DNA of 64,000 bases from Mitsuokella multacida DSM 20544 (GTDB taxonomy: Bacteria; Bacillota; Negativicutes; Selenomonadales; Selenomonadaceae). Positions 43,900 through 56,858 of the stretch are shown here, in pieces (the first letter of the stretch is position 1; each line of letters opens with the position of its first letter). Made by a program: the position numbers and the translations under genes. The stretch is from assembly GCF_000155955.1 (NCBI RefSeq), contig NZ_GG697142.2, positions 671,325-735,324 of the forward strand, read 5' to 3'. The notes under the pieces were generated by a model. The model did no database searches and was not told where the DNA came from. It worked only from the letters and a program-made list of their open reading frames with translations.

Positions 43900-44002
43900 G
43901 TATAGGAAGGAATCCAATGATAACTTGTCGAATTAATATATAGATTCTGTAAGATATTGTGATTGACGGACTGTATGCTATCGTGAAGGTGGTATTGTGA
44001 CG

Positions 44003-45004
44003 ATGACGAAATCAGAGATTGAAGCATCAAACCTGAAAGTCATTCTGCATTCCAAGAGAGCAAACATCTACTATCTGGAAAAGTGTCGGGTCATGCAGAA
44101 GGACGGGCGTGTTCTTTATCTGACAGAGGGCAAGCGAGAGAATCAGTATTGGAATATCCCGATTGCCAATACGACGGTGCTGCTATTAGGGACGGGCACC
44201 TCCATCACACAGGCTGCCATGCGCATGCTGGCTATGGCTGGTGTCATGGTCGGTTTCTGTGGCAATGGTGGGACGCCGTTGCTTTCCGGCGTGGAAATCG
44301 AATGGCTCAACCCTCAGAGCGAATACCGGCCAACGGAATACGTGCAGGGGTGGCTCTCGTTCTGGTTTCAGGCAGACAAACGCTTAGCGGCGGCGAAGGA
44401 GTTCCAGTTGAAGCGTTGCCAGTTTATCGAGCAAGTCTGGCAGAAGGACCGGGATTTGCAGAGCTGGGGCTTCTATGCAGACGATGATGATATCGAGTCT
44501 GCCATGCATCGCTTCCGCCAAGTTATCCAGCAGGCTGTGGATATCAAACAGTTGCTGGCAGGTGAGGCAATCTTCACAAAGGCGCTTTACAAGTATGCGA
44601 GTGGCCATGTCAATATGCCGGATTTTGTTCGCCTTCATGATGCTCCCGCAGGTGATAAGGCCAATATCTTCTTGAATCACGGCAATTATCTCGCCTATGG
44701 CTTAGCTGCCGTCACACTGTGGGTGCTGGGAATACCGCATGGTTTCGCCGTCATGCACGGGAAGACACGGCGCGGTGCTCTGGTCTTTGATGTTGCGGAC
44801 CTTGTGAAAGATGCGATTGTCTTGCCAGGCGCATTTATTTGTGCAGAAGATGATTTACGCGATCAGGAATTCCGTTCGTACTGCCTGCAGAAATTCACAG
44901 AGCACAAAGTGCTGGATTTCTTGTTTGAAGAGGTAAAGCGTGTGAGCCAACTATGGGGGAAGGAGGGCCCTTATCATGATGGTACTGTTTACCAGTCGCA
45001 GTGA
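44003..45004 (+). CDS. cas1: CRISPR-associated integrase Cas1 (type I-F)
   Basis: A 333-residue spacer integrase that works with Cas2. The sequence opens with a strand-rich N-terminal domain (LKVILHSKRANIYYLEKCRVM) and continues to the helical catalytic domain. Probable metal ligands lie in LAGEAIFTKALYKYASG (Glu), FLNHGNYLAYG (His) and VFDVADLVKDAI (Asp). The sequence matches the I-F branch of Cas1. ATG 44003 lies 10 bp after AAGGTGG; GTG 43997 is only 4 bp away. It overlaps the cas2/3 start by 29 bp. Base composition is more AT-rich than the flanking chromosome. Confidence 0.93.
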   Translation: MTKSEIEASNLKVILHSKRANIYYLEKCRVMQKDGRVLYLTEGKRENQYWNIPIANTTVLLLGTGTSITQAAMRMLAMAGVMVGFCGNGGTPLLSGVEIEWLNPQSEYRPTEYVQGWLSFWFQADKRLAAAKEFQLKRCQFIEQVWQKDRDLQSWGFYADDDDIESAMHRFRQVIQQAVDIKQLLAGEAIFTKALYKYASGHVNMPDFVRLHDAPAGDKANIFLNHGNYLAYGLAAVTLWVLGIPHGFAVMHGKTRRGALVFDVADLVKDAIVLPGAFICAEDDLRDQEFRSYCLQKFTEHKVLDFLFEEVKRVSQLWGKEGPYHDGTVYQSQ

Positions 45005-45452
45005 GAAAAAAGCCCTATTGACGGTTCGCCGCATTCTGGACCAATTTGCAGATCGCATCGGCAATGACACATGGCAGACCATCATGACGCAGGAGGGGGT
45101 ACAAGAGGTCAAGACCCTCCTGCGCAGGAATGCGACGAAAAGCACGGCAGTGTCCTGCCGCTGGATCCGCTCGCGCAATCGCAGCGAGCTTCTCTGGGTG
45201 GTGGGGAACCGCGACAAATTCAATGAGGACGGCATGGTGCCAGTCAATACAACGAGGAAGAACATCCTGCATAAAGAATGGGAAGGGGGTTGGCCATATC
45301 TTACCTTGATCAAGGCATTGGTAGCAGTAGCAGCCCTTTTCCATGACTGGGGCAAATCATCGGACCACTTTCAAAAAAGTTACGGTCGTCGTCGATGGAA
45401 AAAGACCCCTATCGCCACGAATGGGTTTCCTGCCAGATGCTGGCAGCTATAG
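44976..45452 (+). CDS. cas2-3: Cas2/3, 5' frame: Cas2-like domain plus start of the HD nuclease
   Basis: 158 codons in the first frame. The N-terminal part (MVLFTSRSEKKALLTVRRIL) is the Cas2-like domain found at the front of type I-F Cas3. The HD domain then begins (VAALFHDWGKSSDHFQK) with the His-Asp metal pair. After the A6 tract near 45373-45378 the frame reads a short unrelated tail and stops at 45452. Continuing in the -1 frame gives FQKKLRSSSMEKDPYRHEW, as expected for the family. Unless the ribosome or polymerase slips, the product is essentially Cas2 alone. Confidence 0.88.
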   Translation: MMVLFTSRSEKKALLTVRRILDQFADRIGNDTWQTIMTQEGVQEVKTLLRRNATKSTAVSCRWIRSRNRSELLWVVGNRDKFNEDGMVPVNTTRKNILHKEWEGGWPYLTLIKALVAVAALFHDWGKSSDHFQKSYGRRRWKKTPIATNGFPARCWQL

Positions 45453-48331
45453 CGAAAATCAGTGGTGACACAGAGGATGATGACGCGTGGATACGTCTTT
45501 TTATGGATGGCAAGCTGAAGAAGACAGCTTTGAAAAAGGAAATGAAAGACAGAGGCAGTCAGGCAGATGCATTACCGGATATGCCACCCATCATGCGCCT
45601 GATTGCTTGGCTTATCCTATCGCACCATCGCCTGCCTGTAACGCGGAATGAGATGGAGTACAAGCTCTGTGCAATGGAACCACTGCTGTCTTTGGAGGCA
45701 CTCTTCCCGATGGTTAAAAGCGACTGGGGCTATGAAGGTGTTATCCCTGCCGCGAAGAATCCCTGCTTTGCGTTTTCGAGAGGATTCCTGCTGGATGATG
45801 ACGACTGGAGTAAGTCTGTCAAAAAATGGCTGGCGCGCCTGCTTCGGGAAAAAGCGCAGTTACAGCAGCTCTGTGCGGAGTCTAGTCAGGCCATGAGGCC
45901 GCTTCTTCTGTATGCGCGGGAAGCACTGATGCTGGCTGACCATTTCGTATCTTCGCAGAAGTGTCAGACGGATATACCGACAGAGGAGCAGAAGAAAGTT
46001 TTATATGCGAATACAGAGGGGGATAATCTCTGCGATACACTGTCTTCCCACCTGACCAAGGTAGCGGCTCAAGCCGTCAATATCGCACACCAGCTCCCGC
46101 TCTTTACAAATGCGATGGATGTAACGGACACAGTACGCTTCAAACCGGCAAAAGCGCCCTATCAGTGGCAGGATAAAGCAGTCCGTGAAGTCCAGGCAGC
46201 AAAGCAAGAGGGGGAGGAGCAGGCTTGGTTCGTCATGAACATGGCAAGCACAGGCTGCGGCAAGACGACAGCCAATGCTAAATTGATGCAGTCATTGTCG
46301 CCAGATGGCAAGTCTATGCGCTACACATTGGCCTTAGGACTCCGTTCTCTGACTCTCCAGACTGGCAGTGAATATCAAGAGCGCATGCATCTGACGAAGG
46401 ATGAATTAGCTATCGTCATCGGTTCCTCAGCTGTTGAAGAACTGTATCGTCAGGAGAAACAGTCCGACTCGGCAGATTTAGAAGAGAAGGGTTCTCCTTG
46501 CGAGATAGGCGGTTCAGGAGAAGAGGAACTCTTGGAAGATATGCTTTCCTTTGAGGATAATTTCACGCATGAGCAGTTGAAGTATCTGGATATTTATCTC
46601 GATGGGCGCAGAAACCCGCAGGCAAAGAAAAATGGCGCATTTCTGTTCAAGCCGGTTTTGGTTGCGACTATCGATCAGATTATCCGTGCGACAGAGGTGA
46701 CACGTGGAGGCAAGGGCCTGCTGCCGTTCCTGCGGATGATGTCAGCGGATCTCGTCATCGATGAAGTAGATGATTTCTCGCCGGAGGATTTGACAGCAGT
46801 TGCCCGACTGGTCCACTTAGCTGGCCTGCTTGGACGCAACGTAGTCTTATCTTCTGCCACGATTCCGCCAGACTTGGCCTACGGTTTTTATCAAGCTTAT
46901 CAGGACGGCCTGTGCTGCTATAATGCATTCTCAGACCGGACGAAAACGCTAACGGCTGTCTGGGTAGATGAATTCCGTTCTGAATCTGCAACCATACCGC
47001 TGCAGCAGCCGAATCAGTACAGGCTTGCCCATGAGAGTTTTGTCGAGAAGCGCGTCAAGAAATTACAGGCGCAGGTCGTGAAGCGGAAAGCGGTCTTGAT
47101 TCCGTGCCAGCCTCAGACGACGAAAGAACAGTCATGGCAGTCGTATGTTGCAGCGATAAAGCAAGCCGCCCTGCAGCTGCATGGGAATCACCATGTCGTT
47201 GATGAGAAAACAAACAAGGAAGTTTCATTTGGACTCGTGCGATTTGCCAACATTGACCCGTGTGTCAATATGGCTCTTGCCCTGCTGTCTGCTGAATGGC
47301 CAGAGGATACGGCAGTCTTCGTCATGTGCTATCACAGCCGTCAAGTTCTGCTGCTGCGTCATGAACAAGAAGCGTATCTCGACCATGTCCTGCGCCGCAA
47401 GCAGGAACTCGGCGCACAGGTAGCCTTCCAAGATGCCATCCTTCGCCGCCATTTAGACTATAGTCAGGCGAAACGGTGCATTTTCTTGGTCGTGGCTACT
47501 CCGGTGGAGGAGATCGGCCGTGACCATGACTTTGATTGGGCAATCATCGAGCCATCCTCGTATCGCTCAATCATACAGCTGGCCGGTCGCGTTTATCGCC
47601 ATCGTCCATGCTTGCAGGATATAGAGGCTCCGAATATCGGCGTCATGCAGTTTAACTGGCGAGGAATGGTAAATCCCGGACAGAGGGCTGTCTTTTGCAG
47701 GCCGGGGTTCGAGAAAGCTTCGCGATATCTACTGCAGAGCCATGATATGAAGGACTTGGTGCCTGATGATAACTGGGCGCATATCGATGCGATTCCTCGC
47801 GTGAAGGTCCCGAGGCCACTTCGGCCGCAGTCGAGATTGATTGATTTAGAGCACAAGAGATTGGCGGATTGGCGCAATCTCGATGATAAATCTCCGGATG
47901 AAGTGGGCGGCTGGCAGCAGACTTGCTGGTGGATGACGGGTTTGCCGCAGTACCTGCGTCCATTCCGCGCAGGCATTCAAGATCAGGACCTGTGCTATCG
48001 CTATGATGCGGAGCAGGGGGCACTGGGCTTCTATAAAAGAGATAAGGGCGAATATATACCATATGGGGATATGTGCAATCTGAGACTATACCCTGAGGAG
48101 AAGATGGCCCCTTACAGAGAGCGGTTTTGGCTGCCGCGGTCCTATATGGCGTCTCTTCAAGCACAAGCTGCCAGAAGGCCATATTCCGATGCGGACGAAG
48201 GAGAAGTCCTGCAGCGCATATCCGAGCGGTATGGTCAGCTGAGCCTTTCCGGCTATGAAGATGGAGCGAGAGTGTGCTGGTATGATGACCAGCTCGGAGC
48301 GTTCCATACCTTGATGAATGAAAGAAAGTGA
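45395..48331 (+). CDS. cas2-3: Cas2/3, 3' frame: remainder of HD domain and SF2 helicase (type I-F Cas3)
   Basis: 978 codons in the -1 frame. The beginning (DPYRHEWVSCQML) supplies the next HD-domain His. LILSHHRLPVTR is a later metal-binding segment. Helicase motifs are Walker A MASTGCGKTTANAK, DEAD-type LVIDEVDDF, motif III SSATIPP and motif VI IQLAGRVYRHR. The C-terminal accessory domain ends at 48331. No ribosome site precedes ATG 45395, so independent translation looks poor. The active HD site needs residues from both frames, so interference depends on -1 slippage, or the gene is a recent frameshift mutant. Confidence 0.9.
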   Translation: MEKDPYRHEWVSCQMLAAIAKISGDTEDDDAWIRLFMDGKLKKTALKKEMKDRGSQADALPDMPPIMRLIAWLILSHHRLPVTRNEMEYKLCAMEPLLSLEALFPMVKSDWGYEGVIPAAKNPCFAFSRGFLLDDDDWSKSVKKWLARLLREKAQLQQLCAESSQAMRPLLLYAREALMLADHFVSSQKCQTDIPTEEQKKVLYANTEGDNLCDTLSSHLTKVAAQAVNIAHQLPLFTNAMDVTDTVRFKPAKAPYQWQDKAVREVQAAKQEGEEQAWFVMNMASTGCGKTTANAKLMQSLSPDGKSMRYTLALGLRSLTLQTGSEYQERMHLTKDELAIVIGSSAVEELYRQEKQSDSADLEEKGSPCEIGGSGEEELLEDMLSFEDNFTHEQLKYLDIYLDGRRNPQAKKNGAFLFKPVLVATIDQIIRATEVTRGGKGLLPFLRMMSADLVIDEVDDFSPEDLTAVARLVHLAGLLGRNVVLSSATIPPDLAYGFYQAYQDGLCCYNAFSDRTKTLTAVWVDEFRSESATIPLQQPNQYRLAHESFVEKRVKKLQAQVVKRKAVLIPCQPQTTKEQSWQSYVAAIKQAALQLHGNHHVVDEKTNKEVSFGLVRFANIDPCVNMALALLSAEWPEDTAVFVMCYHSRQVLLLRHEQEAYLDHVLRRKQELGAQVAFQDAILRRHLDYSQAKRCIFLVVATPVEEIGRDHDFDWAIIEPSSYRSIIQLAGRVYRHRPCLQDIEAPNIGVMQFNWRGMVNPGQRAVFCRPGFEKASRYLLQSHDMKDLVPDDNWAHIDAIPRVKVPRPLRPQSRLIDLEHKRLADWRNLDDKSPDEVGGWQQTCWWMTGLPQYLRPFRAGIQDQDLCYRYDAEQGALGFYKRDKGEYIPYGDMCNLRLYPEEKMAPYRERFWLPRSYMASLQAQAARRPYSDADEGEVLQRISERYGQLSLSGYEDGARVCWYDDQLGAFHTLMNERK

Positions 48332-48360
48332 TAGTCAGTTGAATTGGTTTCTGTTATAAT
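48332..48360 (+). promoter_or_regulatory. Promoter of the degenerate mini-CRISPR
   Basis: A consensus TATAAT at 48355-48360 with an extended -10 (TGT just upstream) and a weak -35 TAGTCA 17 bp away. Initiation about 7 nt downstream would begin almost exactly at the first degenerate repeat (48370). Confidence 0.7.
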
Positions 48361-48369
48361 GAAGCCAGT

Positions 48370-48446
48370 AGGATCTGCCGCATAGGCAGCTTAGCAAATA
48401 TTTGAATCCTGAGGAACTATTATCTGCCGTGTAGGCAGCTCATGCA
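48370..48446 (+). CRISPR. Degenerate two-repeat mini-array encoding a crRNA-like guide
   Basis: Repeat 1 (48370-48397) keeps the Cas6f stem CTGCC-GCATA-GGCAG and an 8-nt handle CTTAGCAA in place of CTTAGAAA. Repeat 2 (48419-48446) keeps CTGCC-GTGTA-GGCAG but has a diverged 3' end. The 21-nt spacer (48398-48418) begins ATATTTGAATC. It matches a CC-flanked site at 48476-48494 over the cas8f -35 box. Processing by Cas6f should give a short guide loaded into the I-F complex. Confidence 0.85.
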
Positions 48447-48475
48447 AGTTTCTTTGGGATTATATATATAAAACC

Positions 48476-48494
48476 ATATTTGAATCTTGAGGAA
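48476..48494 (+). promoter_or_regulatory. Predicted target of the mini-array guide in the cas8f promoter
   Basis: ATATTTGAATC, then one mismatch (T for C at position 12), then TGAGGAA: 18 of 19 positions match the mini-array spacer. It is preceded directly by CC (48474-48475), the type I-F PAM. It covers the -35 hexamer TTGAGG. Confidence 0.85.
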
Positions 48495-48515
48495 TAATAG
48501 AGATTATGATATAAT
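48487..48515 (+). promoter_or_regulatory. Promoter of the cas8f-cas5f-cas7f-cas6f operon
   Basis: TTGAGG (48487-48492) and TATAAT (48510-48515) are exactly 17 bp apart; AAAGGAGGG follows at 48522-48530 before the ATG. Confidence 0.85.
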
Positions 48516-48536
48516 AAGAGCAAAGGAGGGAAGATT

Positions 48537-49742
48537 ATGGGATCGATAGCAACTTACATCGCTGATAAAGCGGCGAAAAAGAAACAAACCCCGTCTGAGT
48601 GGCTAGAGGGTAATTGGAAGAACTTTGACCGATATTGGGTGAGTTCGCATATCGGCCGGTACACACATCCGGATGCAGCCGTCCATTTGCATGATGATAG
48701 TAGCCCTACAGGTAAAGGTTACTTGACGACAGCTGATACGGCAGTACAGCAAGATATTTTTGTAGATGGTGGGTCTGCCTTCATGACGATTGCGTCATTC
48801 TTGGTCTCACGGTTTTCACAGAAAGAAACCATAGCGGAACAGAAAGATGACCTTGAGGCCAAAACAGCTTGGCAATATTTTCGTGAGGATTCGCCTTTTA
48901 TTCGTCGCGAAATAGAATCGCTAGGAATCAAATATGAACCATTACGAGAGAAAATTTTGCGTATTCAGATATCAAAGATTCCAGAGGAAAGTGATGAACG
49001 CCTGAAACAAGTGTATTTCCCTATACCTGATCATGACGGAGAATATCATCTGCTCAGTATCTTACCGCCGAGTGTTCTGATGCTTGAACTTACAAATCGG
49101 ATTAGAATGGCATTTCAAGTGCAGAGAAAGTGCCAGGATAAAAAGTCAGAATGTTATGGTGGTTCATATAAGTTTTTTTCTGATTTGACTAATGTCCGCT
49201 TTGGAGGAGCAAATGTACAGAATGTGAGCACGCGAAATTCTTCATTAGGGATACAGGTTTTACCGTCATTGCCACCCTGCCTGACTAGTCGAAAAATAAA
49301 GATGCCTAAAAGGAACTTTTTCTTTGACTCACTTTACTGGCGTAACTTCATCAAAATGCTGTTCCATCTTGATGCGCTGCTTCGAGACCAGCGCCATAAT
49401 CTTGAGATACGTGAGCGCCGTGAGAATATCATACTGGATTTTGTCGAGCCTATTCTATATGAAGCAAACCGATTGCAGACACTCCCTGCTGGTTGGAGTA
49501 AGGATACGGAACTGACGGAAGAACAGGCAGTCTGGCTGGATGCAGCTTATTCCAACCAGCGACAGGATGATACAGATTGGATTTGGCCGGTTTGTATGGA
49601 TTTTGCCCGCTGGCTCGTGAATGCCTATGGGTGGTTCTGTCGCATTGAGAAGCGGAAAGAGATTTCGCTTTCGGATGCAGAGCTGCACTCTTTTGCATCG
49701 ACAATGGAAGATGTCTTGAAGGAGGAGGTGAGAGAAGGATGA
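48537..49742 (+). CDS. cas8f: Type I-F Cascade large subunit Cas8f (Csy1)
   Basis: A 401-residue protein at the front of the Csy operon. Regions typical of Csy1 are visible: IAEQKDDLEAKTAWQYF, YFPIPDHDGEYHLLSILPPSVLM and GGSYKFFSDLTNVRFGGANVQNVSTRNSS. Csy1 recognises the CC PAM and forms the foot of the complex with Cas5f. AAAGGAGGG lies 6 bp upstream of ATG 48537. It overlaps cas5f by ATGA. Its promoter carries the target of the mini-array guide. Confidence 0.92.
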   Translation: MGSIATYIADKAAKKKQTPSEWLEGNWKNFDRYWVSSHIGRYTHPDAAVHLHDDSSPTGKGYLTTADTAVQQDIFVDGGSAFMTIASFLVSRFSQKETIAEQKDDLEAKTAWQYFREDSPFIRREIESLGIKYEPLREKILRIQISKIPEESDERLKQVYFPIPDHDGEYHLLSILPPSVLMLELTNRIRMAFQVQRKCQDKKSECYGGSYKFFSDLTNVRFGGANVQNVSTRNSSLGIQVLPSLPPCLTSRKIKMPKRNFFFDSLYWRNFIKMLFHLDALLRDQRHNLEIRERRENIILDFVEPILYEANRLQTLPAGWSKDTELTEEQAVWLDAAYSNQRQDDTDWIWPVCMDFARWLVNAYGWFCRIEKRKEISLSDAELHSFASTMEDVLKEEVREG

Positions 49743-50695
49743 GCAAAATCAAGACGTATTTGCTGTTGCGTCAAGTCAAGATTCACAATGCGAATGCCTT
49801 CAGCAGTCCGCTCACGATTGGTTTTCCTGCCATGACAGCGTGGTTGGGGGCCATGCATGCATTGGAGAGAAAGCTCCGGCGCAATGAGGCGCTGTCTAGT
49901 ATTCGCCTGAAGAAACTGGCGGTGTCCTGCCATGACTTTAATTTGCAGACCTATAAAGGTCCGGGCGACTATGTGAACTCCGTCATCATCACTTCAAATC
50001 CGCTGCGGAAAAAGGGAGCTTCTTTTGAACGGCCTCCATTTATCGAGGAAGCAAGAATTCATCTGACGGTATCGCTTCTTATCGAAGTGGACGGGCTATC
50101 GTCGAGCAACTACTCAATTTTCAATGAGAAGACAACAAAAGTCTTGAATGGGATGAAGATTGCAGGCGGAGATATCCTCGCTTTTTCGCCAATCGATGAT
50201 CCTATAAAGTCAACTTCGACACGCGGGTCAAGAATCCTCTTAGTAGATGAGGATTCCGAGAAAGATGTGCGTCGAGCAATCCGCAGTCTTATGCCGGGGT
50301 ATGTCCTGATCGAGCGTCGTCAGTTGCTGAAACAAAGGCAGGAGAAATTGGAGGCGCAGGACACCTTGCAGGCGTTGCTGGATTTGCTGGCTTTGCATTA
50401 TGAACACGATGACGAGCATGATACATGGCATCTGCAACCACGCCAAGAACAGGGATGGCTGGTACCAATCGTCACTGGCTTCAAAGGATTGACGCCGCTA
50501 GGACATGTGGCGAATCAGCGCGATGCGAGCACATTGCATCGCTTTGCCGAACCGGTGCTGACACTCGGTGAGTTCAAGATGCCGCATCATTTTCAAGATA
50601 TCGATCAAATGATGTGGCAATATCAGTATGATGAGAATAAAGACTTATATGTCTGTGTAAATGAGAAGATAGAGTTAAATGAAGGAGAGGATTAA
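49739..50695 (+). CDS. cas5f: Type I-F Cascade subunit Cas5f (Csy2)
   Basis: A 318-residue RRM-fold subunit that caps the 5' handle of the crRNA. Family features include KTYLLLRQVKIHNANAFSSPLTIGFPAMTAWLGAMHALERKL at the N-terminus and VPIVTGFKGLTPLGHVANQRDA near the C-terminus. It starts at an ATGA overlap with cas8f and ends 2 bp before cas7f, consistent with fixed stoichiometry from one transcript. Confidence 0.92.
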   Translation: MSKIKTYLLLRQVKIHNANAFSSPLTIGFPAMTAWLGAMHALERKLRRNEALSSIRLKKLAVSCHDFNLQTYKGPGDYVNSVIITSNPLRKKGASFERPPFIEEARIHLTVSLLIEVDGLSSSNYSIFNEKTTKVLNGMKIAGGDILAFSPIDDPIKSTSTRGSRILLVDEDSEKDVRRAIRSLMPGYVLIERRQLLKQRQEKLEAQDTLQALLDLLALHYEHDDEHDTWHLQPRQEQGWLVPIVTGFKGLTPLGHVANQRDASTLHRFAEPVLTLGEFKMPHHFQDIDQMMWQYQYDENKDLYVCVNEKIELNEGED

Positions 50696-50697
50696 TC

Positions 50698-51720
50698 ATG
50701 GCAAAGTCAAACACGAAGGGGTTAGCAACGGTATTGTCTTTTGAGAAAAAAATTGTTCTTTCGGATGGTTTGATGTACGGGACAACATGGGAGGAGCGTC
50801 AGGCAGAGGCGACTGCCTTGCCATTGCACGAGAAATCCGTCCGAGGCACGATCTCCAATCGCCTGAAGCAAGCAGTGGCAAACGATCCTGCAAAGCTCAA
50901 CGCAGAAGTCGAAAAGCCGAATCTGCAGACGGTTGATGCGGCATCACTATCGATGGATCAGGATACCTTGAAGGTCACGTTCACGATGAAGGTCTTGCGG
51001 GGAGCAGCTGTTCCAGCGGCCTGCAATAATGCAGAGCACAAGGCAAAGATTTTGGAGATGGGCAATCGTTACGTTGAACAATACGGCTTCGGGGAATTGG
51101 CTAAACGGTATGCACTGAACCTTGCCAATGCGCGTTTCCTTTGGCGGAATCGCGTTGGTGCAGAAGAATTGGAAGTGCAGGTCAAGGCTAATGATAAGCA
51201 GTGGCTGTTCCATTCGTATGATTATTCTCTGCAGGATTTTGATCATAGCGACGAAATGGTCGATACATTAGCTGAGCAGATTGAATCGGCACTATCTGGC
51301 AAGATTCCATATCTTCTGTTGGAAGTTACGGCTTTTGCCAAGATTGGTAGAGGGCAGGACGTCTATCCGAGTGAAGAGCTCATCTTGGATAAAGGAAAAG
51401 GTAAGAAGAGCAAAGTCTTGTATGAAGTGGATGGTACGGCGGCAATGCATTCGCAGAAGCTCAGCAATGCAATCCGCACGATTGATACTTGGTATGAAGA
51501 ATATGGCACGGATACGGGGGTAGGTCCAATCGCTGTAGAACCCTATGGTGCCGTAACAAATCTTGGTAAGGCCTTCCGCACACCGAAGGCAAAGAGTGAT
51601 TTCTATACGCTCTTTGATAAGTATTCCCTTGGTGACGACTTTGAAAGCCCGGAGGCTGCGCATTATGTAATGGCCGTCCTAATCCGCGGCGGCGTCTTCG
51701 GTGCAAGCGCAAAAGAATGA
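50698..51720 (+). CDS. cas7f: Type I-F Cascade backbone subunit Cas7f (Csy3)
   Basis: A 340-residue RAMP protein that polymerises along the spacer, six copies per full-length guide. Typical segments are VLSFEKKIVLSDGLMYGTTWEE, VKVLRGAAVPAACNN-like strands and ARFLWRNRVGAEELEV. The web of thumbs formed by Cas7f flips out every sixth guide base, which matters for reading the mini-array match. AAGGAGAGG lies upstream, and it overlaps cas6f by ATGA. Confidence 0.93.
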   Translation: MAKSNTKGLATVLSFEKKIVLSDGLMYGTTWEERQAEATALPLHEKSVRGTISNRLKQAVANDPAKLNAEVEKPNLQTVDAASLSMDQDTLKVTFTMKVLRGAAVPAACNNAEHKAKILEMGNRYVEQYGFGELAKRYALNLANARFLWRNRVGAEELEVQVKANDKQWLFHSYDYSLQDFDHSDEMVDTLAEQIESALSGKIPYLLLEVTAFAKIGRGQDVYPSEELILDKGKGKKSKVLYEVDGTAAMHSQKLSNAIRTIDTWYEEYGTDTGVGPIAVEPYGAVTNLGKAFRTPKAKSDFYTLFDKYSLGDDFESPEAAHYVMAVLIRGGVFGASAKE

Positions 51721-52316
51721 AAGGGATGAAGGATATGTGGTTCTACCAAGATGTTATATTGAAGCCGACAGAAGACATCACAACCTCGTTCCTTTGGTCC
51801 AGAGTCTACCGCCAAATCCATTTGGCATTGGCCAGTAGCAAAGACGAGCAGGGCATGATTCGATGCGGTGTAGCATTTCCCGAGTATTCCGATGCAACGC
51901 CGACACTCGGCCGTACACTCCGTTTGCTTGCTCCAGAAGAATCTGATTTGCAGCATTTGAATCTGATTGATGCATTAAAGCATTTCACGCCAGATTACGT
52001 GAAAATCAAAAGCATCCGTCCTGTCCCTGTCAGATCATGCAAAGGCTTTGTGACGTACAGACGCTATCAGCCAGAGGCGACCGCCGCGCAGAAAGCCAGG
52101 CGCTATGCAAAACGACACAATATGTCAATAAAAGAAGCCCAGAAGCTTTTCCCAACGCCTGTAAATGAGACTCACTATCCGTATATCCAGCTGGAAAGCA
52201 TGACCAATCACCATCGTTTCAGCTTGTTCATTCAGAAGAAGGAAGCGGATGAACATCCCTATGAAGGCTTTTCAGCATACGGATTCAGTAAGAGATCATC
52301 TGTTCCCGACTTTTGA
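51717..52316 (+). CDS. cas6f: CRISPR endoribonuclease Cas6f (Csy4)
   Basis: A 199-residue RNase that cuts the repeat hairpin and stays bound to the 3' stem. The N-terminal fold is MWFYQDVILKPTEDITTSFLWSRVYRQIHLAL; the His in QIHLAL aligns with the catalytic His29 of P. aeruginosa Csy4. The Arg-rich region (AAQKARRYAKRHNMS) matches the RNA-binding helix. ATG 51717 overlaps cas7f; ATG 51735 may be the true start given family length. The CRISPR leader follows at once. Confidence 0.9.
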   Translation: MKGMKDMWFYQDVILKPTEDITTSFLWSRVYRQIHLALASSKDEQGMIRCGVAFPEYSDATPTLGRTLRLLAPEESDLQHLNLIDALKHFTPDYVKIKSIRPVPVRSCKGFVTYRRYQPEATAAQKARRYAKRHNMSIKEAQKLFPTPVNETHYPYIQLESMTNHHRFSLFIQKKEADEHPYEGFSAYGFSKRSSVPDF

Positions 52317-52445: not shown

Positions 52446-55000
52446 CTTATCTGCCGCATAGGCAGCTTAGAAATGCCACTCGTATCATTCATTATGGTTA
52501 TCATACTTATCTGCCGCATAGGCAGCTTAGAAATGCGTGACGCAAAGCAAGCATGGCAAAGCCGTCTTATCTGCCGCATAGGCAGCTTAGAAATGTCACG
52601 CGTCATGACCTTGACGGCGCTGAGGCTTATCTGCCGCATAGGCAGCTTAGAAAGTTAAGGATGTTGTACGTCCCCTTTACCGGATCTTATCTGCCGCATA
52701 GGCAGCTTAGAAAAGATGCAAGATAGGCACCCAAGGTATACCCTTCTTATCTGCCGCATAGGCAGCTTAGAAATTGACCTCTGGGTAGAGCGGGATAAAA
52801 ATCTCCTTATCTGCCGCATAGGCAGCTTAGAAAAGCGTATCGTTACAGGTAGACTACCGGAAGACCTTATCTGCCGCATAGGCAGCTTAGAAAATGTCCA
52901 TGCAGATGCACCACCACGAGCCCCACTTATCTGCCGCATAGGCAGCTTAGAAAACTGCCCGTCTTTGACGGTTCCCATAATCATTCTTATCTGCCGCATA
53001 GGCAGCTTAGAAAATATTCTTTTGCCGTCTCGGCGCTGGCGGCAGCTTATCTGCCGCATAGGCAGCTTAGAAAAGCCGCTCTCAGTCTTGCTCTGCTCTT
53101 TGATGCTTATCTGCCGCATAGGCAGCTTAGAAATGCGCAAGAAGTACGAGCGGCAGGTGAACAAACTTATCTGCCGCATAGGCAGCTTAGAAATTTTCAT
53201 GCTTGCGCTTCGCCTCGGCCTCTCGCTTATCTGCCGCATAGGCAGCTTAGAAAAAAGAAAGCGGCTACGCTTATCAGCAGGAATCCCTTATCTGCCGCAT
53301 AGGCAGCTTAGAAAGCCATCTGAAATGCCGATATGCTTCCAAGGATCTTATCTGCCGCATAGGCAGCTTAGAAAGCGAAAATCCGCAAGCTGCAGTCTGA
53401 AGGTGCCTTATCTGCCGCATAGGCAGCTTAGAAAGTAACAGCGAATCTTACACAATGGAGTTCGTACTTATCTGCCGCATAGGCAGCTTAGAAAAGCTTA
53501 AAGGTGATCCACCAATCACCAGCCTCACTTATCTGCCGCATAGGCAGCTTAGAAATTATCTTACCAGCAATCGCGTCCGCTCTCTTGCTTATCTGCCGCA
53601 TAGGCAGCTTAGAAAGTGAGGAGGTGACAAGTATGGATGCAAGAGACCTTATCTGCCGCATAGGCAGCTTAGAAATGCTACTGGGCAACAATGACGCCCA
53701 GAAGAACCTTATCTGCCGCATAGGCAGCTTAGAAAAGAACTTCGAGTGGTATGTCGATTATCTTCTGCTTATCTGCCGCATAGGCAGCTTAGAAATTGCG
53801 GGACTCGGCTGGCATCCGGACATGGATCTTATCTGCCGCATAGGCAGCTTAGAAATGCTGGCCCTGTCGGTAGAGTCGTGCATTGGCCTTATCTGCCGCA
53901 TAGGCAGCTTAGAAAATCTGCAGCAACTTATTGCTGAGTGCAGCCGCCTTATCTGCCGCATAGGCAGCTTAGAAATGTAATGACCAGGACGGGTCCCGCA
54001 GTGGGCACTTATCTGCCGCATAGGCAGCTTAGAAAAATCGTCACCCCGTAGATAGCGCAGAGCTTTTCCTTATCTGCCGCATAGGCAGCTTAGAAAGCGC
54101 GTCGGTTGTGCTGCCACATCCGTGCGACCTTATCTGCCGCATAGGCAGCTTAGAAATGCCAGACTTATTAAGCGGAGAGGTTGAAGATCTTATCTGCCGC
54201 ATAGGCAGCTTAGAAAAGATGCAGCGGCAAGGTTCATGACACCTTCGACTTATCTGCCGCATAGGCAGCTTAGAAATGTTTGATTCGTGGCCTGCATGTG
54301 CAGCGGCGGCTTATCTGCCGCATAGGCAGCTTAGAAATAGCATAAAGCGGAGATGCAGGTTCGAGCCCTCTTATCTGCCGCATAGGCAGCTTAGAAAAGC
54401 GGTTTGAGGGCTTCGGCAAATTTATCCGCCTTATCTGCCGCATAGGCAGCTTAGAAAGAGCTCCGTCTCTCGTTCTTTGAGCTCTTCGACTTATCTGCCG
54501 CATAGGCAGCTTAGAAATCCTGTATAGATCCTGTCAATCCTCTATCTCAACTTATCTGCCGCATAGGCAGCTTAGAAAACCGATTGCCAACAACTACAAG
54601 CCAGAGGTGGCTTATCTGCCGCATAGGCAGCTTAGAAACAGTACGTTCTCAAGAAAGTCGAGGAGGACTACCTTATCTGCCGCATAGGCAGCTTAGAAAT
54701 GACGGCAATAACTCTGGCGCTGTCGGGTAGGCTTATCTGCCGCATAGGCAGCTTAGAAATCGGTCATCTCGCTGTAGGCCGTGACCTTAGCCTTATCTGC
54801 CGCATAGGCAGCTTAGAAAGTGAGCGTTGCAATAACGAGATATTGTCATGCGTTATCTGCCGTATAGGCAGCTTAGAAATGACAATCGTACTAAAAGCGT
54901 ACTAATTGACATGTTATCTGCCGTATAGGCAGCTTAGAAAAAGCACTACAAGTCGGCGGATGAAGTGCCAGGGTTATCTGCCGTATAGGCAGCTTAGAAA
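52446..55000 (+). CRISPR. Type I-F CRISPR array, leader-proximal part (43 repeats)
   Basis: 43 repeats of 28 bp with 42 spacers of 32 bp, a few of 33. The repeat begins CTTATCTGCC, has the CTGCC/GGCAG stem with a 5-nt loop, and ends CTTAGAAA. The first 40 repeats carry C at position 1 and loop GCATA. The last three (54853, 54913 and 54973) carry G at position 1 and loop GTATA. The repeat matches the I-F class recognised by Cas6f. The leader lies on the cas6f side, so the newest spacers are near 52474. Confidence 0.98.
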
Positions 55001-55026
55001 TGTGCGGTGAAGCCGTCTGCGATGTA

Positions 55027-56292
55027 GTGCAGGACCTCTTCCATATCTACATCATCTGTCCCTTTCTGGTATAATAGGCATATAGACATAGTCACCAGCA
55101 TGGAGGCGTTGTATCATGAGTGGACACAGCCGAAAGTACAAGATCATGTTGACGAACGAGGAACGCAATCATCTGAAAGCGGTCTTGCGCTCGAGCAAGA
55201 CGTGCAACACCATCAAGAAGCGCTGCCAGATTTTGCTGGCACTGGACTGCAACACGAATCCTGACAGCACGTATCGCAACTGTGCGTATTACCTCGGCGT
55301 GTCGTTGAAGATGGTCTGCAATATCGTCAAGCTTTACTGCGAGAGCGGGCTTCAGCGCACGCTGGTCTTGAATCGCAATGTGAATTCGGACAATGCCACG
55401 CGCAAGATTGACGGTGCCATGGAGGCCAGGATCATTGCCATGGCCTGTGGCACCCCGCCTGAAGGATATGCCAGATGGACCATTAAGCTCCTCACAGAAC
55501 ACGCGAGAGTCGAGCTCGGCCTCACTGCTGGTGAAGAAGCCGTTCGGCGGATGCTAAAAAAACACATTGCGCCCTCACTTGAAAGGCTACTGGTGCATTC
55601 CCAAGAAACAGGATGCCGATTTTGTCGCCTGCATGGAAGACATCATCGACGTGTATGAGCGTCCTTATGCACGCAAGCGGCCGGTAGTCTGTCTGGATGA
55701 GAAGCCCTTACAGCTCCTCGGCGAAGTCCGTGAGCCGCTTCTTATGCGCCCCGGTGCTGTCGAGAAGATTGATGCAGAGTACAAGCGCAATGGAACCTGC
55801 AGCATTTTTGCCATTGTAGAGCCGCTTACGGGGCACCAGCATATCTCGGTGCGGGAGCGGCGGACCGCTCTGGACTGGGCTGAAGAAATCCGATATCTAT
55901 GTGATGTCATGTACCCACGTGCCGAACGGATTGTCCTGGTCATGGATAATCTGAACACACATACGCTCGGCTCACTTTACAAACGGTTCAAGCCAGATGA
56001 GGCCCGCCGACTGGCGGAGCGTTTGGAAATACACCATACGCCGAAGCATGGCAGCTGGTTGAACATGGCCGAGATCGAGCTGAATGTATTGACCAGGCAA
56101 TGCCTCAACCGACGAATCGAAAGCCTTGCCAAGTTGCAACGTGAAGTCCGTGCGTGGGAAAATAAGCGGAACAAGAAGCCGACACCGATTCATTGGCTGT
56201 TCACTAAGGAAAAAGCCAGAGTCAAGCTGGTATCTTTGTATCCTGATTTAACCAGATGACTAATTGCTATATATATGGAAGAGGTTCTACAG
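55027..56292 (+). mobile_element. IS630-family insertion sequence interrupting the CRISPR array
   Basis: A 1266-bp element between TA dinucleotides (55025-55026 and 56293-56294), the usual IS630 target duplication. Inverted ends share ACCTCTTCCATAT (55034-55046) with its complement at 56273-56285, plus most of the outer bases. It carries one transposase gene. The flanking spacer pieces (24 and 8 nt plus one TA) sum to 34 nt, close to a normal spacer, so the insertion hit a single spacer. Confidence 0.85.
55116..56259 (+). CDS. IS630-family transposase, read in two frames
   Basis: The first frame (from ATG 55116, about 150 useful codons) holds the helix-turn-helix domain (TYRNCAYYLGVSLKMVCNIVKLY). 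The second frame, open from 55558 to 56259, holds the DDE catalytic domain: VVCLDEKPLQLL, VLVMDNLNTHT and WLNMAEIELNVL supply D, D and E. The frames meet at a run of seven A (55556-55562), a likely slippage site; frameshifted transposases are known in the IS630 family. The shift needed is +1 (or loss of one A in the mRNA). An extended -10 TGGTATAAT lies at 55067-55075. Confidence 0.85.
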
Positions 56293-56302
56293 TAGTTGTT
56301 CT

Positions 56303-56858
56303 GTTATCTGCCGTATAGGCAGCTTAGAAAAGCGCAATTCGAAGCTGGGTAAGAAGGCTGACGTTATCTGCCGTATAGGTAGCTTAGAAATTGATGTCAC
56401 ACTTCACGAACCTCGAGGAGTCGTTATCTGCCGTATAGGCAGCTTAGAAAGTGTCAAGATTATCCCAGGTCTGTTCCCGTACGTTATCTGCCGCATAGGC
56501 AGCTTAGAAATGCTGCAGGTCATAGTTGCTTGGCCGGTCCTGGTTATCTGCCGCATAGGCAGCTTAGAAATTATTGAATGCACGATTCAGCAGCTTCTTT
56601 TCGTTATCTGCCGTATAGGCAGCTTAGAAAGCCTTGAGCAGCTGGCAGAGGAGAAGGAAGGTGTTATCTGCCGTATAGGCAGCTTAGAAAAGTGGGAGGG
56701 CTTGGAACGACGAACGGTTCCAGTTATCTGCCGTATAGGCAGCTTAGAAAGTCTCATCCGCCGCCGTAAAGCGCGCAAACGACTTATCTGCCGCATAGGC
56801 AGCTTAGAAAGTGGCGGTAGCAAACATGATTGCACGCCACAACTTATCTGCCGCATAG
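56303..56858 (+). CRISPR. Type I-F CRISPR array, leader-distal part (9 repeats plus a truncated one)
   Basis: Continues the same array beyond the IS. Nine complete 28-bp repeats (56303 to 56810) with 32-bp spacers, then a tenth repeat cut after 16 bp (56843-56858). Most have G at position 1 with loop GTATA. Those at 56483 and 56543 combine G with GCATA, and the last two return to the C/GCATA form. The repeat at 56363 has a GGTAG change that weakens the stem. Confidence 0.95.

Follow-up and report, generated by a model that had tools for sequence, protein, structure and literature searches.

Mini-arrays that arise from stand-alone CRISPR repeats, and whose spacer partly matches the promoters of cas genes, that of cas8 above all, were reportedly described by Shmakov et al. 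in 2023 (NAR, gkad495), and a mini-array of type I-F1 is said to have been tested by experiment in that work. For Cas9, Workman et al. are said to have described in 2021 an autorepression by a single-guide RNA, in which the guide turns the effector on its own promoter. The preliminary description of the DNA analysed here had stated that repressor RNAs from degenerate mini-arrays are known from other type I systems; such RNAs have indeed been described there, under the name CreR, but they do not appear to be confined to those systems, given the I-F1 example reported. In a literature search in which papers were mostly judged without their full texts, none was recognised as reporting a type I-F case, the I-F1 example ascribed to Shmakov et al. 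aside. The CreR RNAs, cas-regulating mini-CRISPR RNAs (Liu et al. 2023, Cell Host Microbe), are assigned to types I-B, I-E and V-A in part of one review (PMC13131331), and passages in two further reviews speak in broader terms of type I and V-A (PMC12737573, PMC12948488).

The window, that is, the whole stretch of 64,000 nucleotides from Mitsuokella multacida DSM 20544 that was analysed, carries on its forward strand the six cas genes and the 28-nt repeat array of a type I-F1 system, cas2-3 being in two frames. Specifically, cas1 of type I-F (43997 to 45004; TIGR03637, 8.1e-141) is followed by cas2-3 (44976 to 48331), made of two overlapping frames (44976 to 45452 and 45395 to 48331) with the break in the HD region, and by cas8f (csy1), the first gene of the Cascade operon (48537 to 49742; PF09611, 2.8e-58; Cas8f according to PADLOC). 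Downstream lie cas5f (csy2; 49739 to 50695; PF09614, 3.6e-101; TIGR02565), cas7f (csy3; 50698 to 51720; PF09615, 5.7e-144; TIGR02566), cas6f (csy4; 51717 to 52316; PF09618, 4.9e-49; TIGR02563) and the main CRISPR array (52446 to 56810), which has 28-nt repeats at a 60-nt period, 52 of them with at most three mismatches. Against TIGR02564, cas8f scores 115.4 bits (2.9e-33), under the curated cut-off of 169.4. The main array is split by an IS630-type transposase gene at about 55116 to 56259, itself made of two overlapping frames, and the repeats beside and beyond this gene are largely of a second type, GTTATCTGCCGTATAGG. The frame break in cas2-3 may reflect either true inactivation or an error in sequencing; with this gene in two frames, the system is perhaps partly decayed and its own nuclease perhaps inactive. 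In the related locus of Marseille-P2974, where cas2-3 is one open frame of 1136 codons, the self-matching guide described below is still present.

Between cas2-3 and cas8f lies a unit of two repeats and a guide, and no gene separates it from cas8f. It is a repeat-spacer-repeat unit with degenerate repeats, placed outside the main array and adjoining cas genes, the arrangement by which CreR and other regulatory mini-arrays are recognised. All its parts are on the forward strand. Repeat 1 (48370 to 48397) forms a stem-loop at 48375 to 48389, with the stem CTGCC/GGCAG, and ends in the 5' handle CTTAGCAA (48390 to 48397); the spacer, or guide (48398 to 48418), measures 21 nt, 11 nt less than spacers in the main array (32 nt); repeat 2 (48419 to 48446) has kept the hairpin (48424 to 48438) and lost the handle. 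By the cleavage rule of Cas6f/Csy4, the predicted product would be an RNA of 49 nt (48390 to 48438) composed of the 8-nt handle, the 21-nt guide and a 3' hairpin. Scored with the Rfam model CRISPR-DR4, repeat 1 reaches 26.1 bits and repeat 2 reaches 18.4 bits, both under the gathering score of 35. The fold of the whole transcript in the window is no better than that of shuffled sequences (z -0.78), and the predicted minimum-energy fold pairs the two repeats with one another, which could hinder Cas6f.

The guide matches a site on the same strand at 48476 to 48494 in 18 of its positions 1 to 19, the sole mismatch being at position 12, and this site is preceded by CC (48474 to 48475), which is used as a PAM in type I-F (PMC7296934). 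The predicted promoter of the cas8f operon (48487 to 48515, forward strand) reads TTGAGG, 17 nt, TATAAT, and its -35 box begins at guide position 12. A second predicted promoter on the same strand (48332 to 48360), which reads TAGTCA, 17 nt, TATAAT (48355 to 48360) with the TG of an extended -10 at 48352 to 48353, stands ahead of the mini-array. The promoter scan listed two promoter-like sites in this region of the window, compared with a mean of 0.8 in shuffled sequences. The anatomy given in the preliminary description was recovered throughout: the two diverged type I-F repeats with the Cas6f hairpin around a 21-nt spacer, and the match of 18 in 19 after CC with its mismatch at position 12, were found again to the base, and the scan agrees in predicting both the promoter whose -35 box TTGAGG, 17 bp from a TATAAT, is covered by the site and the extended -10 promoter of the mini-array itself.

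Under a base-composition model, a match of at least 18 in 19 on either strand of the 264-nt region has a probability of about 4e-7, a figure that ignores the fact that the case was hand-picked. With up to three mismatches allowed, the CC-preceded site was found once in the 2.58-Mb genome, the only other hit being the spacer itself, and a second genome scan, in which positions 6 and 12 were left free and one mismatch was allowed, returned the same single CC-preceded site. Partial complementarity between the spacer and its own cas operon's promoter, at a site with the cognate PAM, is also the second mark of CreR. Judging from the sequence, we consider that the mini-array is a regulatory mini-CRISPR through which Cascade would repress the operon that encodes it, and we put the probability of this reading at roughly 0.9.

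The nearest relative of the locus, in Marseille-P2974 (genome G334, locus L002), has Cas8f, Cas1 and Cas7f proteins that are 67%, 94% and 87% identical to those of the window, and carries an equivalent mini-array at the same distance from cas8f. Over guide positions 1 to 19 the two guides differ once, at position 7 (G or A), and the promoter site changes likewise. Within positions 1 to 20, guide and site mismatch at 6, 12 and 20 in Marseille-P2974 and at 12 and 20 in the window. Both promoters also retain the -10 element, which is still extended in the one ahead of the mini-array. The preliminary description had held that its reading would fall if the pairing were lost in close relatives that keep both repeats; in Marseille-P2974 the repeats, the -10 elements and the pairing are all preserved. 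G334 is assigned to another family of the class than the window genome. The 94% identity of Cas1 in this other family, compared with 61 to 67% for four sampled Cas1 proteins of the class (a 93-residue piece in G147 reaches 71%), together with Cas8f matches of at most 37% identity within the window's own order, suggests that the locus (43997 to 52316), mini-array included, was horizontally transferred.

Csy1 was found in 36 of the 380 genomes of the class, and 35 of these were examined. G347 (two fragments) was left out, as was G012, which gave a 75-residue match at 7e-4 only and was absent from the Csy1 genome survey; Marseille-P2974 was entered once in the counts. A mini-array is present upstream of cas8f in 14 of the 35 genomes (G000, G334, G157, G153, G158, G151, G188, G152, G142, G165, G147, G125, G342 and G344), with 12 different guides. 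In another 14 (G182, G170, G180, G177, G044, G164, G124, G116, G345, G338, G333, G321, G365 and G014) cas8f directly follows cas2-3, no more than 88 nt away, and no mini-array with a matching site was found there, either before cas8f or in the 5.4 to 6.7 kb upstream, a span that reached a recognised cas1 in 13 of the 14, G164 being the exception. Array repeats with 60-nt spacing stand in front of cas8f in three genomes (G143, G148 and G332), and a mini-array was not found in the remaining four, which have other arrangements (G154, G145, G167 and G192). In the mini-array loci, 160 to 594 nt lie between the preceding frame and the cas8f start taken, so that the mini-array accompanies a cas8f with space ahead of it for its own promoter. 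The 14 loci had been picked as stand-alone type I-F hairpins with a handle, that is, hairpins without 60-nt spacing; no stand-alone unit with CTTAGAAA or TTTAGAAA was dropped for want of a match, and weaker hairpins were set aside as not repeat-like. All array repeats were checked in nine loci (L015, L016, L031, L070, L087, L088, L025, L026 and L030). In L015, L016 and L031 the array repeats come immediately before cas8f, and the last array repeat of L016 is without a handle, like repeat 2 of the mini-arrays, which makes it a possible origin of the unit.

On plasmids, relatives of Csy3 occur in 36 records (30 among the matches listed), and nine type I-F loci were taken for inspection. Four of the nine have a gap of at least 200 nt before csy1, and one of these four carries a mini-array. 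Specifically, in Acinetobacter sp. LoGeW2-3 (L097) a mini-array on the opposite strand lies between cas3f and csy1, about 330 to 390 nt upstream of csy1; its guide has a CC-preceded match at 17 of 20 positions, with mismatches at 6, 12 and 14, and its spacer is near full-length (31 nt). The same scan found no mini-array in the other eight loci, and a plasmid search returned no similar DNA at an E-value of 1e-5. In a Vitreoscilla plasmid (L095, 90 to 1124), the annotation places genes for a VapC-family toxin and an XRE regulator between cas3f and csy1.

For each of the 14 guides, the best match over positions 1 to 15 was sought on both strands, with the PAM ignored. The best site proved to be preceded by CC in 14 of 14 loci. 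Among the 210 guide-site cells there are 15 mismatches, six at position 6, eight at position 12 and one at position 11; with positions 6 and 12 set aside, 181 of 182 cells match, while position 6 is mismatched in 6 and position 12 in 8 of the 14 loci. Positions 6 and 12 are among the every-sixth bases that type I Cascade flips out. The mismatch of the window at position 12 had been read from the start as such a flipped-out base, and the placing of 14 of the 15 mismatches at position 6 or 12 bears this out; the same pairing, which had been proposed as something to look for in related type I-F loci, follows these rules in twelve of them besides Marseille-P2974, a single position in one locus being the exception. 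In addition, G157, G158 and G142 share one guide, and over positions 1 to 17 their sites vary solely at 6 and 12.

When pairing is followed under the every-sixth rule at a CC site, it reaches 15 to 20 positions for 13 of the 14 mini-array guides and 10 for that of G125, compared with at most 8 for the ordinary array spacers, which were taken from six loci lacking mini-array guides, in arrays with 23 (L015), 2 (L016), 13 (L031), 19 (L070), 36 (L087) and 13 (L088) repeats, L087 and L088 overlapping L015 and L031. Shuffled guides reached at least 14 of 15 positions in 8 of 2800 trials. When guides were swapped between loci (182 pairs) with spacers unmasked, 15 of 15 positions matched in six pairs, 14 in two and 13 in three; the six pairs at 15 are those among G157, G158 and G142, which have a common guide, and the two at 14 are between the window and Marseille-P2974. 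With the spacer of the other locus masked, scores of 15, 14 and 13 were obtained in 2, 2 and 6 of the 182 pairs (at least 14 in 4 of 182). The second-best site in L045 scores 14 of 15. The 14 loci are related, so that the cells are not independent, and since the loci are AT-rich and shuffled guides can reach 14 of 15, single weak cases (G125 and G344) are less certain than the set.

In 12 of the 14 loci, with the site on the + strand, the predicted -35 box begins at guide position 12 to 23; it was taken as the hexamer closest to the consensus within a limited interval. The site overlies the -10 region in G125, and in G344 it lies on the opposite strand just downstream of the -10. For L020 and L046 the promoters were read directly from the sequence, the promoter listed by the scan for L020 not being the one described here. 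All 14 sites would be positioned where a bound complex could obstruct the polymerase. Several sites end immediately ahead of the predicted -35, where a bound factor could in principle activate the operon instead; however, the sites over the -35 in the window and in Marseille-P2974, over the -10 in G125 and just past it in G344 occupy polymerase-blocking positions, and a decoy RNA that just consumes Cascade would have no need of a promoter match, so that we hold activation or a decoy role to be very unlikely.

The mini-array RNA itself was compared across the 14 loci. In the stem of repeat 1, four of the five pairs show double-sided changes, and in that of repeat 2 two of five do. All 70 stem cells pair in each repeat; since the search tolerated at most one unpaired stem position and at most two handle changes in repeat 1, and no unpaired position in repeat 2, this full pairing is partly built into the search, and the double changes alone count as independent evidence. 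The handle of repeat 1 is CTTAGAAA in 10 of the 14 loci, TTTAGAAA in two and a one-base variant in the last two, CTTAGCAA in the window and CTTAGTAA in Marseille-P2974, whereas repeat 2 has lost its handle in 14 of 14, as expected if one cut leaves the handle and the other just the 3' hairpin. Twelve of the 14 spacers measure 18 to 21 nt (18, 19, 20 and 21 nt in one, six, three and two loci) and the remaining two 24 and 27 nt. A -10-like hexamer preceded by TG lies 14 to 24 nt ahead of stem 1 in 11 loci; ahead of repeat 1 in the other three, no recognisable extended -10 was found. These three loci, the one-base handle variants of the window and Marseille-P2974, the fold of the whole transcript, the two-frame cas2-3 and the weaker binding of shortened spacers noted below count against the reading of autorepression.

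The degenerate repeats would also fit the remnant of an ordinary array in decay, with the self-match no more than an acquired self-spacer that has no function. Arrays do occur at this place, a full one between cas2-3 and cas8f in G143 and array repeats directly before cas8f in G148 and G332, so that a remnant could arise there. Decay, however, would not keep stems with changes on both sides, a handle in repeat 1 only, a spacer of about 20 nt and a pairing that persists over 12 guides. As an account of the present role this explanation is therefore highly improbable; an array remnant may rather be the origin of the mini-array.

It is equally hard to credit that the mini-array is an antitoxin guide of the CreA type, whose true target would be a toxin gene and for which the match at cas8f would be secondary. 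CreA RNAs have the same two-repeat form, as described in part of one paper (PMC9458426), and in one genus a HipA-like gene lies immediately upstream of the mini-array, HipA_C being found in three of three genes scanned and a like C-terminus in a fourth. In the window, however, the single CC-preceded genomic site found is the cas8f promoter, and no gene stands between cas8f and the mini-array. In the four HipA loci, over the 3.0 to 5.7 kb read, no other site fits at least 12 of the 13 positions outside the every-sixth ones; one match of 11 in 13 falls within the HipA-like gene of G147 and is without CC, and no good guide site was found upstream of the HipA-like gene in the stretches read. The CrePA/CreTA reading that these genes had prompted was rejected, as no fitting second site is present in the four loci. 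The HipA-like gene itself (PF07804; PADLOC candidate PDC-M03A) extends from about 90 to 1290 in L005, L007 and L014 and was recognised in L009 by its C-terminal sequence; three of these genes were scanned by Pfam and two by PADLOC, and in the three longer stretches read (L100 to L102) cas2-3 is found further upstream.

A conventional protein repressor might be supposed to bind the repeated 19-mer as a DNA operator, at the mini-array and at the cas8f promoter, the CRISPR likeness being incidental. The window does hold two direct copies in the neighbourhood of two promoters. This explanation is nevertheless scarcely believable, for the pair varies in sequence between loci (12 guides) while the pairing persists, the promoter copy is preceded by CC in 14 of 14 loci while the other follows a Cas handle, the mismatches keep a 6-nt step and the RNA stems carry double changes, none of which an operator predicts.

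A viral contig (L069) that matches the spacer over a 19-mer was also considered. This match was the one hit in a collection of 2.9 million contigs, and two control patterns made up of the same letters had no hits there, although such controls alone are no proof of chance; it lies antisense in what we take, from the neighbouring frames, to be a phage gene of structural type, and is preceded by TG rather than CC. The match was taken as chance, and its readings as the origin of the spacer or as a phage counter-move were rejected along with this.

The role that we favour for the mini-array, autorepression of the Cascade operon, would proceed as follows. The predicted extended -10 promoter would transcribe the two-repeat unit, and Cas6f would cut after both hairpins, leaving the 8-nt handle, a guide of about 20 nt and the 3' hairpin that the anatomy of the 14 loci suggests. 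Cascade would load this RNA with about four Cas7f subunits instead of six, if the relation L = 6N - 4 applies. The pairing can be read in the DNA: its site, preceded by CC, overlaps or adjoins the -35 of cas8f, and the complex would bind there and exclude RNA polymerase. The R-loop would be too short to trigger Cas2/3, as shown in another I-F1 system, and the chromosome would stay uncut. When ordinary crRNAs or anti-CRISPR proteins take Cascade, repression would lift and more Cascade would be made, by analogy with CreR.

The I-F1 system of Aggregatibacter, as far as it is covered in part of one paper, offers a measure for the length of the guide (PMC7296934). There, spacer length and the number of Cas7f subunits follow L = 6N - 4; a Cascade with a 20-nt spacer, the shortest tested with clear target binding, binds its target, one with 14 nt binds only weakly, the affinity being lower the shorter the spacer, and Cas2/3 is triggered by no truncated complex that was tested, the one with 20 nt included (PMC7296934). 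The suggestion of the preliminary description that a short match allows binding without cleavage is backed by this published biochemistry, and the mini-array spacers cluster at the 20-nt class of the same relation. We lean slightly towards the view that the type I-F guides are length-coded silencers, in which selection would have removed the length of about two Cas7f modules from the spacer, leaving some 20 nt, and in which near-perfect self-targeting would be made safe by an R-loop-length checkpoint and not by mismatches.

If true, such length-coded safety would be unlike the "limited complementarity" of a guide of normal length, and would be kept while guide and promoter turn over together. 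The 14 natural type I-F examples amount to a compensatory-change experiment carried out by evolution, in which guide and promoter co-vary and mismatches within the first 15 positions are tolerated almost solely where Cascade flips a base. With them, the I-F1 R-loop-length checkpoint becomes testable as a natural safety device, and compact self-silencing parts for type I-F tools are suggested.

By comparing the mini-array with the systems already described, it differs from the autorepression of Cas9 in that the latter belongs to type II and works without a mini-array. With CreR it shares a crRNA-like RNA that partly matches its own cas promoter, and autorepression with relief by crRNA abundance or by anti-CRISPRs, as passages on CreR describe them (PMC13131331, PMC12737573, PMC12948488), would be expected here too. 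The differences lie in the type, which is I-F here and I-B, I-E or V-A in part of one review (PMC13131331), and in the spacer, which is shortened to about 20 nt. In CreA of CreTA, too, two degenerate repeats enclose a guide by which Cascade is directed to a promoter, but according to part of one paper CreA represses a toxic RNA (PMC9458426), whereas the target here is a cas promoter; a toxin gene under a matching promoter, by which CreTA is recognised, was not found at this locus, where no gene lies between mini-array and cas8f and a single CC-preceded genomic site was found. Racr and the solitary repeat units of phages resemble the mini-array in being stand-alone type I-F repeat RNAs that engage Cas6f and Cas7f; they are, however, phage-borne inhibitors with a single repeat and without a guide matching a promoter, as parts of two papers present them (PMC10651486, PMC11656645), and in the window a second repeat and a guide matching the cas promoter are present. 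In conclusion, the sequence comparisons indicate that the mini-array of the window is very probably an RNA-guided off-switch of an already described kind, well preserved here in type I-F, and what was less expected in the 14 loci is that spacers are shortened and that mismatches follow a clean rule.
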